Program-made: the position numbers and the translations under genes
Source: Geothrix sp.
GTDB lineage: Bacteria; Acidobacteriota; Holophagae; Holophagales; Holophagaceae
Direction of reading: 5' to 3'
NCBI RefSeq assembly: GCF_030219325.1
Contig: NZ_CP126625.1
Span: 3,026,857-3,090,856, forward strand
Length of the DNA stretch: 64,000 bases
The notes under the pieces: model-generated
What the model was told of the DNA's origin: nothing
The model's input: only the letters and a program-made list of their open reading frames with translations
Database searches by the model: none
Shown here: piece after piece, positions 51,923 through 54,848 of the stretch
How the letters are laid out: the number at the start of each line of letters is the position of its first letter
How positions within the stretch are numbered: the first letter of the stretch is position 1

Positions 51923-51964
51923 GACAAAAATGTATTATCACTGTAAATGACTTACATTTTTGTA
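51923..51964. promoter_or_regulatory. Paired TACA-N4-TGTA dyads (putative enhancer, upstream activator sequence)
   Basis: GACA-AAAA-TGTA (51923-51934) and TACA-TTTT-TGTA (51953-51964) form two 12-bp dyads with centres 30 bp apart, and together form an 11-bp inverted repeat. They lie about 120-155 bases upstream of the predicted sigma-54 transcript start, the usual place for an enhancer-binding-protein site. The same arrangement occurs at the regulator gene itself. The region directly follows the regulator stop codon, so a role as its transcript end is an alternative. Confidence 0.65.
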
Positions 51965-51968
51965 ATTT

Positions 51969-53510
51969 CTATAGGTTTCGGAAGCGCTCCGGCTCCAATC
52001 CGTACTTCTGAACCTTGTAGTTCAGGATGCGCTCCGTGGTCTGCAGCAGCCGGGCGGCACGGGAGCGGTTGCCCCGGGCGGACTTCAGGGCGTCCTGCAG
52101 CAGGTCCCGCTCGAAGGCGGCCACAGCCTCCCCCAGACCCGTGCCCGGCAGGGTCCCGGAGACCTCCGCTGTCTGCAGGGAGGGGGGCAGATGGTGGGCG
52201 TGGATCACGCCGCCTTCGCAGACGAGGACGGCCCGCTCGATGGCGTTCTCCAGTTCGCGCACGTTGCCGGGCCAGTGGTAGGCCGCCAGCATGTCGATGG
52301 CCGAGGTGGAGATGCGGCGCACGTCCTTGCCCTGGGCCGCCGCGACCTTCTCCACGAAGTGGTCCGCCAGCAGCAGGATGTCCGCCTGGCGCTCCCGGAG
52401 CGGCGGCATGAACACCTCGAAGACCTGCAGGCGGTAGTAGAGATCCTCGCGGAAGGTCCCGGCCTTCACGGCGGCTTCCAGGTCCCGGTGCGTGGCGGCG
52501 AGGAGCCGCACGTCCACCTTCACGGGGCTCACCCCGCCCAGCCGCTCGAACTCCCGCTCCTGCAGCACCCGCAGCAGCTTCACCTGGGTGGCCGGGGACA
52601 GCTCCCCCACCTCGTCCAGGAACAGCGTGCCGCCATGGGCCAGCTCGAAGCGGCCCTTCTTCTGGTGCCTCGCGTCCGTGAAGGCGCCGGGCTCGTAGCC
52701 GAAGAGCTCCGACTCGATGAGGTTCTCCGGCAGGGCCCCGCAGCTCACCTTGATGAAGGGTTTCTCAGCCCGGGGCGAGTTGTAGTGCAGGGCATGGGCC
52801 ACCAGCTCCTTGCCCGTGCCGGACTCGCCCCGGATGAGCACCGTGGTGCTGCTGGGCGCGGCCTGGGCCACGGCCTCGTAGACCCGCTGCATGGCGTGGC
52901 TGTGCCCGATGAGGTGGCGCAGGTCGTAGCGCTCACGCAGCTCCAGGCGCAGCTGCTGGTTCTCCTCCACCAGCCGCTGCCGGTCGGCGGCCACCAGCCG
53001 GGCCACCTTCATGGCCAGGCCCACCATGGAGGCGGCGATCTGCAGCAGCTTGGTGTCCCGGTCGAAGTCGCGGTGCCGGTCGTAGGGCACCGTGAGGCAG
53101 AGGGTCCCCGCCGTCTTCTGGTCCAGGAAGATGGGCACGCAGAAGAAGGAGAGCTCGGTCTTCTTGCGCTTCTGCTCCCGGAGCACGCCCGTGCGGTCCA
53201 GAAACAGGGGCTCCTGGCTGGCCTGGGGCAGCACCACGGCCTTGCCGCTCACCAGCACCCGCCCGTTGATGCCCTCCCCCGCCTTGTAGTGGGCTCGCTC
53301 TGCCGCCTGCCTGGACAGGCCCCGGGCCGCCTCGATGCGCAGCCCCCGGCCCTCCTCGTCCGCCAGGAGGATGGCCCCGTTCAGGGCCCCGAAGGCCTCC
53401 GACAGGATCTCCAGGGCCCGGGGCAGCGCCGAGCGAATGTCCGAGGCGGCCAGGGCGTGGCTGAGCTCCAGCAGGGGCGAAAGAAGAAGGGCGTCCTCCG
53501 AGGGGTTCAT
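51969..53510 (-). CDS. Sigma-54-dependent transcriptional regulator, NifA-like (GAF-AAA+-Fis)
   Basis: 513 residues. An N-terminal GAF-like sensory domain (about 15-170; [17 protein letters not shown]) is followed by the AAA+ domain with Walker A GESGTGKE, the sigma-54 loop GAFTDA (usual GAFTGA) and Walker [11 protein letters not shown]-terminal Fis-type HTH closes the protein ([26 protein letters not shown] in parts). The layout matches NifA and related activators. It probably activates the downstream small protein-porin-Amt-PII operon. Its own promoter contains the paired dyads. Confidence 0.9.
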
Positions 53511-53531: not shown

Positions 53532-53573
53532 TACAAAATTGTATCAAATAAATATTGCTTCGACAATTTTGTA
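53532..53573. promoter_or_regulatory. Paired TACA-N4-TGTA dyads overlapping the regulator promoter
   Basis: TACA-AAAT-TGTA (53532-53543) and GACA-ATTT-TGTA (53562-53573) are two dyads with centres 30 bp apart, the same spacing as the pair at 51923-51964. On the minus strand TTGTCG and TACAAT, 17 bases apart, form a sigma-70-like promoter whose -35 and -10 lie inside the two dyads, 22 bases before the start codon. Binding would block it, suggesting autorepression. The divergent aroF leader begins 57 bases away. Confidence 0.65.
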
Positions 53574-53629
53574 TGATGGTTGAAATCCATCTCGCCTTGC
53601 TTCAGGATGAGTCACCCCCTGGAAGCCCC

Positions 53630-53704
53630 ATGTCCCACCGGTTTACCTATCCCTATTGGAGCCCCCGCGCGGATCGCGCGTGGCGCGGCCAGGGTCCTTC
53701 CTAA
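53630..53704 (+). CDS. Aromatic amino-acid leader peptide of the DAHP synthase gene
   Basis: A 24-codon frame, ATG to TAA, opening MSHRFTYPYW and with a second Trp at position 18: Phe5, Tyr7, Tyr9, Trp10 and Trp18. GGAAG lies five bases before the ATG. It is followed 23 bases later by an intrinsic terminator and then the DAHP synthase gene. Five aromatic codons in so short a peptide are not expected by chance in GC-rich DNA. Attenuation by ribosome stalling at Phe/Tyr/Trp codons is inferred. Confidence 0.75.
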   Translation: MSHRFTYPYWSPRADRAWRGQGPS

Positions 53705-53757
53705 ACTCCGGAATCCCCCACCGACCACCCCGATCCTCCCAAGGGATCGGGGTTTTT
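53671..53757 (+). promoter_or_regulatory. Attenuator: antiterminator candidate and intrinsic terminator
   Basis: The terminator is CCCCGATCC (53728-53736), a 7-base loop, GGATCGGGG (53744-53752) and TTTTT (53753-53757). The leader carries GGATCG at 53671-53676, just after the aromatic codons, which can pair with CGATCC of the 5' arm and so prevent the terminator. GCGCG-GAT-CGCGC at 53667-53679 could act as a pause hairpin. This fits the leader-peptide model; pairing energies were not computed. Confidence 0.7.
53728..53757 (+). terminator. Intrinsic terminator in the aroF leader
   Basis: Nine-base-pair perfect stem, 7-base loop and five Ts. It lies 24 bases before the DAHP synthase ATG, so it precedes rather than follows a gene, which points to attenuation. 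Confidence 0.85.
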
Positions 53758-53780
53758 CGTTTCCTAGGAAAGCCGCGACC

Positions 53781-54848
53781 ATGACCCACCAGGCCCTCGA
53801 AAACCTCAACATCGACGCCTTCGACCGGATGCCCTCGCCGGGCGAGGTCCACGCGGCTCTGCCCGTGCCGGATGCCGTCGCCGAGACCGTGGCCATCGGC
53901 CGACGCGACCTCCAGCGCATCCTGGCCCGGGAGGACCCCCGCCTCATGGTGGTGGTGGGCCCCTGCAGCATCCACGATCCCTTGGCCGGGCTGGACTACG
54001 CCCGGCGGCTGAAGGTCCTGGCCGACGAGGTCGCGGATACCCTGCTGCTGGTCATGCGGGTCTATTTCGAGAAGCCCCGCACCTCCACGGGCTGGAAGGG
54101 CTTCGTCAACGACCCCCGCATGGACGATTCCTTCCACATCGAGGAGGGGGTCCGGAAAGCCCGGGAGTTCCTGCTCCGCATCGGCGAGCTGGGCCTGCCC
54201 GCCGGCACCGAGGCCCTCGACCCCATCACGCCCCAGTACCTGGGCGACCTCATTGCCTGGACCGCCATCGGGGCCCGGACTTCCGAGTCCCAGACCCACC
54301 GGGAGATGTCCAGCGGCCTCTCCACCCCCGTGGGTTTCAAGAACGCCACGGACGGCGACCTGGGCGCGGCCGTGAACGGCATCCTTTCCGCTTCCCATCC
54401 CCACAGCTTCCTGGGCATCAACGACCAGGGCCAGGCCGCCATCGTGCGCACCCGGGGCAATGCCCTGGGCCATCTGGTGCTGCGGGGCGGCAGCGGACGC
54501 CCCAACTACGACACCGTGAGCGTCTCGCTGGCCGAGGCCGCCCTGCGCAAGGCGGGCCTGGCCGAGAACATCGTGGTGGATTGCTCCCACGCCAACAGCC
54601 TTAAGAATCCGCGCCTGCAGCCCCTGGTGCTGCATGACTGCGCCCACCAGATCCGCCGGGGCAACCGTTCCATCATCGGCGTCATGGTCGAAAGCTTCAT
54701 CGAAGAAGGGAACCAACCCATCCCGGCGGACCTTTCCACCCTCAAGTACGGCTGCTCCGTCACCGACGCCTGCCTGGGCTGGGACGACACCGTGGCCATG
54801 TTGCGCGACACGCGGAACCTGCTGAAGGAGGTCCTGCCGAATCGCTGA
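53781..54848 (+). CDS. aroF: 3-deoxy-7-phosphoheptulonate synthase (DAHP synthase, class I)
   Basis: 355 residues. The first enzyme of the shikimate pathway, condensing PEP and erythrose-4-phosphate. Typical class I alpha (AroF/G/H) motifs: VVVGPCSIHD, MRVYFEKPRTSTGWKG, PAGTEALDPITPQY, ESQTHREMSSGLS, GFKNATDG, VDCSHANS and GVMVESFIEEGNQ. The Asn/Cys/His metal ligands are present. The isozyme (Phe, Tyr or Trp sensitive) is not told by sequence alone. The upstream leader peptide and terminator suggest it is controlled by aromatic amino-acid supply. Confidence 0.96.
   Translation: MTHQALENLNIDAFDRMPSPGEVHAALPVPDAVAETVAIGRRDLQRILAREDPRLMVVVGPCSIHDPLAGLDYARRLKVLADEVADTLLLVMRVYFEKPRTSTGWKGFVNDPRMDDSFHIEEGVRKAREFLLRIGELGLPAGTEALDPITPQYLGDLIAWTAIGARTSESQTHREMSSGLSTPVGFKNATDGDLGAAVNGILSASHPHSFLGINDQGQAAIVRTRGNALGHLVLRGGSGRPNYDTVSVSLAEAALRKAGLAENIVVDCSHANSLKNPRLQPLVLHDCAHQIRRGNRSIIGVMVESFIEEGNQPIPADLSTLKYGCSVTDACLGWDDTVAMLRDTRNLLKEVLPNR

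Follow-up and report, generated by a model that had tools for sequence, protein, structure and literature searches.

We analysed a stretch of 64 kb (hereafter the window) from a Geothrix genome, which comprises 3.73 Mb in one contig. The gene at 53781–54848 on the plus strand starts with the ATG at 53781 and encodes a type I DAHP synthase of the AroFGH type with 355 aa (aroF; Pfam DAHP_synth_1 with E 5e-78, NCBIfam aroFGH equivalog and PRK12755 subfamily above cut-off). Two further DAHP synthase family matches are present in the genome, L112 and L113; L112 is a DAHP synthase of a different subtype with a ferredoxin-like domain, and inspection by eye revealed no leader at this second DAHP synthase. 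Ahead of aroF and on the same strand we found a probable sigma-70-type promoter at 53580–53608 (TTGAAA at 53580–53585, 17 bases, CAGGAT at 53603–53608), which is weak by consensus and was missed by a 9-of-12 consensus scan, followed by the ribosome site GGAAG (53621–53625), read in the sequence ahead of an ATG, and a frame of 24 codons plus stop (53630–53704) that translates to MSHRFTYPYWSPRADRAWRGQGPS. As given in a preliminary description of this DNA, the frame contains Phe5, Tyr7, Tyr9, Trp10 and Trp18. The intrinsic terminator which that description had placed before aroF is likewise present with its T run at 53727–53757, although its hairpin (53727–53753, −19.8 kcal/mol) has 11 pairs rather than the nine claimed. 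The upstream neighbouring gene (51969–53510) is located on the minus strand, opposite to aroF, and we take it to resemble a sigma-54-type activator. The word ACAAAATTGTA, presumably operator-like, has four matches in the window with at most one mismatch (0.02 expected); these form two inverted pairs at 53533–53572 and 51924–51963, which flank the regulator gene and have an identical spacing of 29 bases.

Regarding conservation, a protein search of 60 genomes, our own included, gave an AroF match in 27. An AroF clade with 86–100% identity is found in 17 genomes, and in 13 of these the whole arrangement of leader, terminator and aroF is intact. Together with L031 from an uncultured Holophagaceae bacterium (Acidobacteriota), which was found via the protein (AroF 90% identical) and carries a leader of the same kind, and with L120, L124 and L145, which were found via a leader model and are thus not usable as a test of leader presence, this makes 17 intact aroF leaders; L147 (G424) was excluded as it lies on the same contig as L031. 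Masked folding, the covariance model and the aroF-only pairing counts given below are based on 14 of these 17. Four clade loci lack an intact leader and were kept outside the leader alignments, yet counted as losses: L016 has decayed, both leader and terminator are absent from L013 and L014, and in L007 (1350–1480) the terminator is intact while the leader is decayed, with loss of the frame and the sensor codons, so that aroF may be poorly expressed there or under other control.

The terminator is present in all 17 intact leaders of the alignment, and the frame is kept in every one of them, with 24 codons in 16 cases and 25 in G249 (L124). Because it is kept while its stop codon drifts (TGA 8, TAG 5, TAA 4), we regard it as a translated frame. 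GGAA or GGAC precedes the frame at comparable distance in 14 aroF leaders, and a promoter of the same type recurs, with TTGACN or TTGAAA at a spacing of 17–18 from CAGGAT (14 of 17) or CAGCAT/CACGAT (2 of 17); the script used for this comparison kept the best of three spacings and chose another hexamer in L006. The preliminary description had proposed that aromatic codons should be conserved in related leaders despite drift elsewhere, and this is what we observed for Tyr9, Trp10 and Phe5, whose neighbours vary. Tyr9 is present in 17/17 leaders and always encoded by TAT, Trp10 in 16/17, the exception being G249, which reads His-His-His-Tyr-Tyr-Arg and has no Trp, and Phe5 in 15/17 (TTC 9, TTT 6), with G249 and L005 lacking Phe at that register. 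Trp18 is kept in 16/17. Tyr7, which had also been counted among the sensor codons, is found in just three of the 17 and is not retained as one. The sensor codons are rare synonyms in six genes of the window, TAT accounting for 16 of the 81 codons for Tyr and TTT for 8 of the 135 for Phe.

These data bear on whether the terminator is an ordinary end-of-gene or constitutive element beside a small frame that arose by chance. Short frames are common in this GC-rich DNA (90 frames of at least 20 aa in 8 kb), and L007 keeps the terminator without the leader. However, the neighbouring gene 51969–53510 runs the other way, so that the terminator at 53727–53753 has no upstream transcript to end, and the 17 intact leaders retain the frame, the place of the stop and the sensor codons even though the stop codon itself drifts; leaders with Asn codons at the same register, described below, also precede a second gene. 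We therefore consider a chance frame beside an unrelated terminator extremely improbable. By a strict terminator definition the hairpin at 53727–53753 is the only terminator in the window on either strand, and the arrangement of leader, terminator and gene is a single case, while a looser scan gave three terminator-like sites in 3 kb (1.4 expected).

The part of the frame behind the sensor codons can pair with the terminator region. GGATCG at 53671–53676 is, as the preliminary description had recognised, the exact complement of CGATCC at 53731–53736, and we found four additional pairs between GTGG (53680–53683) and CCAC (53725–53728). Region 2, the 5’ side of this antiterminator (GGATCG, CGC, GTGG; 53671–53683), is located within the coding frame, whereas region 3, its 3’ side (CCAC, CC, CGATCC; 53725–53736), overlaps the 5’ arm of the terminator. 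For the duplex formed by the leader with spacer plus 5’ arm, the energy has a z of −2.74, and 2 of 500 shuffles were as good. Nine of the ten antiterminator pairs are invariant in 14 aroF leaders and the tenth differs in one leader, hence within these 14 alone no covariation of the antiterminator was found. In all 17 aroF leaders codons 14, 15 and 17 show no variation at the third base, while the third base of codon 16, between the antiterminator blocks, varies freely (C 8, T 8, G 1).

We then noted a second copy of the leader in the same genome. A covariance model built from 14 aroF leaders, without any asnB input, was applied to 47 genomes from the genus and to 396 from the phylum, with E-values that are rough by the tool’s own statement. 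At 1943576–1943727 it matched a leader in front of asnB with 78 bits and E 4e-18, which reads MTLSHQRFNRNTNRLPRADRAWAGKGLS and is coded for Asn (attenuator L157:3087–3228). In the genus an asnB-type leader is present in 38 of the 47 genomes and an aroF leader in 17, all of which carry both. The next frame behind the 38 asnB leaders begins as AsnB in 35 and lies inside AsnB in L175, while in L211 and L214 the longest-frame rule returned another frame over the apparent asnB start. Two sister genera contribute three genomes with the leader before asnB (L192–L194). In a third sister genus (L191, G160) an Asn-rich leader of the same type, counted separately from the asnB leaders, precedes a gene that resembles asparagine synthetase A (NCBIfam E 8e-28, below cut-off; no Pfam match) and is unrelated to AsnB by family searches. 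Beyond Holophagaceae, matches in the even sample of 396 phylum genomes (strict filters, eight candidates scored per genome) start only at E 0.009, and the best of them covers the terminator only.

With the antiterminator’s D/N codon as the reference point in 17 aroF and 41 asnB leaders, the amino acids at the presumed stalling positions are exchanged in accordance with the gene downstream. Position D−6 is Asn in 41/41 asnB leaders (AAT in 37) and Tyr in 17/17 aroF leaders; D−5 is Arg in 34/41 asnB leaders (CGG in 31; Pro in the others) and Trp in 16/17 aroF leaders; D−10 is Asn in 35/41 and Phe in 15/17, respectively. Between D−12 and D−4 the asnB leaders contain two to four Asn codons, the aroF leaders none or one. 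The change from AAT CGG to TAT TGG requires two base changes. At D+3, in contrast, Trp is found in 41/41 asnB leaders as well as in 16/17 aroF leaders. For this reason Trp18, which the preliminary description had included in the sensor, has to be set apart from the other aromatic codons: it belongs to the structure, its TGG being part of the antiterminator.

With the asnB leaders included, the antiterminator does covary. In 59 leaders (17 aroF, 41 asnB and L191) 589 of 590 antiterminator cells are paired. The second pair is G-C in 21 (17 aroF, three asnB and L191), and among the other asnB leaders G-U in 23 and A-U in 15; A never stands opposite C (Fisher p 4.5e-4, a statistic that ignores descent). 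Both the paired fraction of 99.8% and the covariation score of 0.088 were matched by 0 of 500 shuffles; slid controls pair at 58% or less, while one of them reaches a covariation score of 0.085. No pair shows a double-sided change by the definition of the tool, which counts from the commonest type, G-U. As the covarying U mostly faces G in the terminator, the change from G to A should strengthen the antiterminator only. The leader RNA could also be a ligand-binding riboswitch, a T-box or a protein-bound attenuator with an incidental peptide, as terminators with alternative folds are common to these classes. Against this, neither the window nor seven related loci (asnB, pheA, trpE, proB, proC and L191 leaders) gave an Rfam match above threshold, the best local match having E 1.3, far below threshold, and the aroF and asnB leaders share antiterminator and terminator yet differ in the codons for the cognate amino acids. 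We judge such a reading very improbable and favor control through translation of the leader.

Further leaders of this design occur in the same genome. The Phe-rich leader of pheA (MLISRRFFAFSFRTSGARPGGV, L217:1079–1215; duplex z −3.24, 2/500 shuffles as good) and the trpE leader with Trp-Trp-Trp (MLLSFPIPCQGLSSEAWWWRTGSDGSLCEA, L218:1279–1423; z −1.76, 25/500) each precede a terminator, and in both cases a leader segment is complementary to the 5’ side of that terminator. A Pro-rich leader with a terminator lies before proB (MKSTQNLIPRPGHPIPAAGGLQV), where the antiterminator duplex is not significant (z −0.25, 183/500). Based on these sequences the genome appears to carry Phe and Trp leaders and perhaps a Pro leader. 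Of the weak matches to the covariance model 14 were inspected (L177–L190), with seven before proB, four before proC, one before pheA and two (L186, L190) before unrelated genes. A Pro-rich leader with terminator is found before proB at seven loci (L177:253–384, L178, L179, L181, L182, L185 and L187), and a terminator before proC at five (L180, L184, L188, L189 and L196), with a leader frame in the first three; the proC leaders belong to other species. Applied to seven loci of other species, the duplex test was passed by L178 (proB, z −3.02) and L183 (pheA, z −2.62), was weak in L185 (−1.41) and L181 (−1.46), and failed in L182, L180 and L184.

Since the pheA, trpE and proB leaders have the same design without clear sequence likeness, the resemblance between the aroF and asnB leaders might be ascribed to convergence on one terminator design. 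Against this, the aroF-leader model gives only 15–29 bits for the pheA, proB and proC matches, compared to 78 for asnB, and in this genome the aroF leader has an identical run of 18 bases in common with the asnB leader, the alignment of the two extending through the second half of the leader, the stop codon, the spacer and the terminator, with a pairwise score of 93 versus at most 24 in 300 shuffles. Convergence is thus a very improbable account, and we treat the aroF leader as homologous to the Holophagaceae asnB leader, including antiterminator and terminator.

The aroF leader combines a short frame of the translated type, end-product codons in place, a terminator before the gene and an antiterminator that excludes it, which are features of leader-peptide attenuators. 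We consider it highly probable that a ribosome-mediated transcription attenuator controls aroF. The ribosome-stalling attenuation of DAHP synthase put forward in the preliminary description is supported by the conserved translated leader, the fixed aromatic codons and the conserved antiterminator, which covaries once the asnB leaders are included. Leader and RNA switch would probably turn on aroF, which encodes the entry step of aromatic amino acid synthesis, in response to a shortage of tyrosine, tryptophan and perhaps phenylalanine. In the mechanism we propose, scarcity of charged Tyr- or Trp-tRNA would cause the ribosome to stall at the codons TAT TGG of Tyr9-Trp10 (53654–53659), the presumed main sensor. 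Its leading edge, 13–17 bases from the stalled codon, would then lie just before GGATCG and leave region 2 free to pair with CCAC..CGATCC once this is transcribed; the terminator would be blocked and aroF read. With plentiful charged tRNA the ribosome would cover region 2, the terminator would form and transcription would stop.

Folding for alternative structures, also suggested in the preliminary description, yielded a hairpin of regions 1 and 2 (53661–53689) as the minimum free energy structure of 53661–53760. On its own this 1:2 hairpin has −17.6 kcal/mol, and it may act as a protector or pause hairpin. When its register was tested in 14 aroF leaders, one pair was GC in seven, AU in three, GU in three and other in one, and another pair was unpaired in 5/14. 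With a ribosome masked so that Trp10 occupies the A site, the predicted antiterminator probability is 0.70–1.00 in all 14 leaders; placing Tyr9 there instead gives 1.00 for 13 of the 14 and 0.01 for L031, which reaches 0.70 with Trp10. Without a ribosome and before the terminator 3’ arm is transcribed, the antiterminator exceeds 0.5 at equilibrium in 9/14 leaders, so that equilibrium thermodynamics does not predict transcription to terminate when the leader is untranslated; in these models the result speaks against a strong protector hairpin. An RNAalifold consensus of the 14 aroF leaders prefers pairing of CCAUG with CGUGG (53628–53632 with 53679–53683) over the 1:2 hairpin, and this predicted pairing of the leader start with region 2 could possibly mask the start codon.

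The proposal of a response to all three aromatic amino acids holds insofar as each has a conserved codon (Phe5, Tyr9 and Trp10), while for Phe a response is the least certain, as Phe5 (TTT, 53642–53644) is located 12 bases upstream of Tyr9. Attenuation could be real with Tyr-Trp as the only sensor: just Tyr9 and Trp10 sit 13–17 bases from region 2, a stall at Phe5 would leave the 1:2 hairpin free with the terminator following, and Phe is missing at this register in two leaders. On the other hand, Phe is kept in 15/17 leaders by both of its synonymous codons at the register of the conserved Asn of the asnB leaders, as expected for a sensor position, and masked folding with Phe5 in the A site predicts the antiterminator at 0.67–1.00 in 11 of 14 leaders and at 0.00–0.31 in three. 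A sensor limited to Tyr and Trp therefore is a serious possibility, which we place slightly below its alternative, and we retain Phe5 as a possible third sensor codon.

For the origin of the aroF attenuator we examined a phylogeny built from 110 AroF proteins, comprising the 80 best database matches (of 589) less one and the copies from the genomes searched. The 17 leader-bearing AroF group with the four without intact leader in a single clade (support 1.0). Its sister is a protein without leader from a metagenome-assembled genome labelled Betaproteobacteria (L032; support 0.917, 76% identity), and another Holophagaceae AroF clade with 71–74% identity, in which no such leader was seen, is placed apart; deeper nodes are weakly supported (0.48–0.83). 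One leader gain and about three losses would be the simplest account. The asnB leaders are found family-wide and the aroF leaders in one clade of one genus, which argues for a copy from asnB to aroF. Most likely, judged from these sequences, the aroF attenuator is a copy of the asparagine attenuator of asnB, placed before a horizontally acquired aroF, with Asn codons rewritten as codons for Phe, Tyr and Trp. The Asn that occupies position 7 of four of the 17 aroF leaders could be a relic of the old codons, and Tyr-Tyr-Arg in G249 a possible intermediate. Outside Holophagaceae, 77 regions upstream of aroF from the best 80 of 589 matches (mostly Beta- and Gammaproteobacteria by title) included 22 with a short frame of at least four aromatics and eight with a terminator-like hairpin. 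The only one with both in order, L059, was rejected, as its frame has a TTG start and is open upstream like the end of a longer protein.

The trp and pheA attenuators of Escherichia coli are based on leader codons and on mutually exclusive antiterminator and terminator, and each senses a single amino acid. The aroF leader resembles them in its codons, its exclusive folds and the distance from control codon to region 2; it differs in sequence, having no match to an Rfam leader, and in the position of region 2 within the coding frame. Both E. coli systems are named in PMC11802643, which together with PMC4046766 also describes the aroR leader (Phe-Tyr-Phe) before aroF in Corynebacterium glutamicum (Neshat et al. 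2014), where stalling raises transcription. As described there, aroR likewise is a leader peptide with aromatic codons ahead of a DAHP synthase gene, yet it belongs to Actinobacteria and has no Trp codon, a distinction drawn from the descriptions rather than from a comparison of sequences; the leader reported here has Phe5, Tyr9 and Trp10, is from Acidobacteriota and is homologous to an asparagine leader. By screening for premature terminators Naville and Gautheret (2010, PMC2965389) predicted attenuators in the leaders of Acidobacteria, the same phylum, almost none with an associated function; their paper also carries the suggestion that short leader frames arise repeatedly out of random sequence, and the terms aroF, aromatic and DAHP do not occur in the main text. 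The text of the Actinobacteria survey PMC1262725, as far as it was available, does not contain asparagine, proline, aroF or aroG. Among the matches listed for the open-licence literature, judged by title or start of abstract, there was no earlier report of an asparagine-sensing leader, nor a case of attenuators in Acidobacteria or Geothrix, of duplicated attenuators or of proline leaders.

We regard the finding as real and the mechanism as very likely, and its added interest stems from the apparent descent from an asparagine attenuator: the locus looks like one attenuator evolving into another through duplication and a few codon changes. It is likely, on the evidence at hand, that a leader-peptide attenuator can move as a cassette and be re-specified by point mutations of the stall codons, here from Asn and Asn-Arg in asnB to Phe and Tyr-Trp in aroF, giving one leader that senses three aromatics, and that the family runs its Asn, Trp, Phe, Pro and aromatic-entry pathways by such leaders. 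The evolutionary path is testable, as two base changes should shift the Tyr-Trp sensor back towards Asn. The leaders described here suggest likely functions for attenuators in a phylum in which, as of 2010, hardly any attenuator had been assigned a function, and they would represent a natural modular design for amino-acid sensors.
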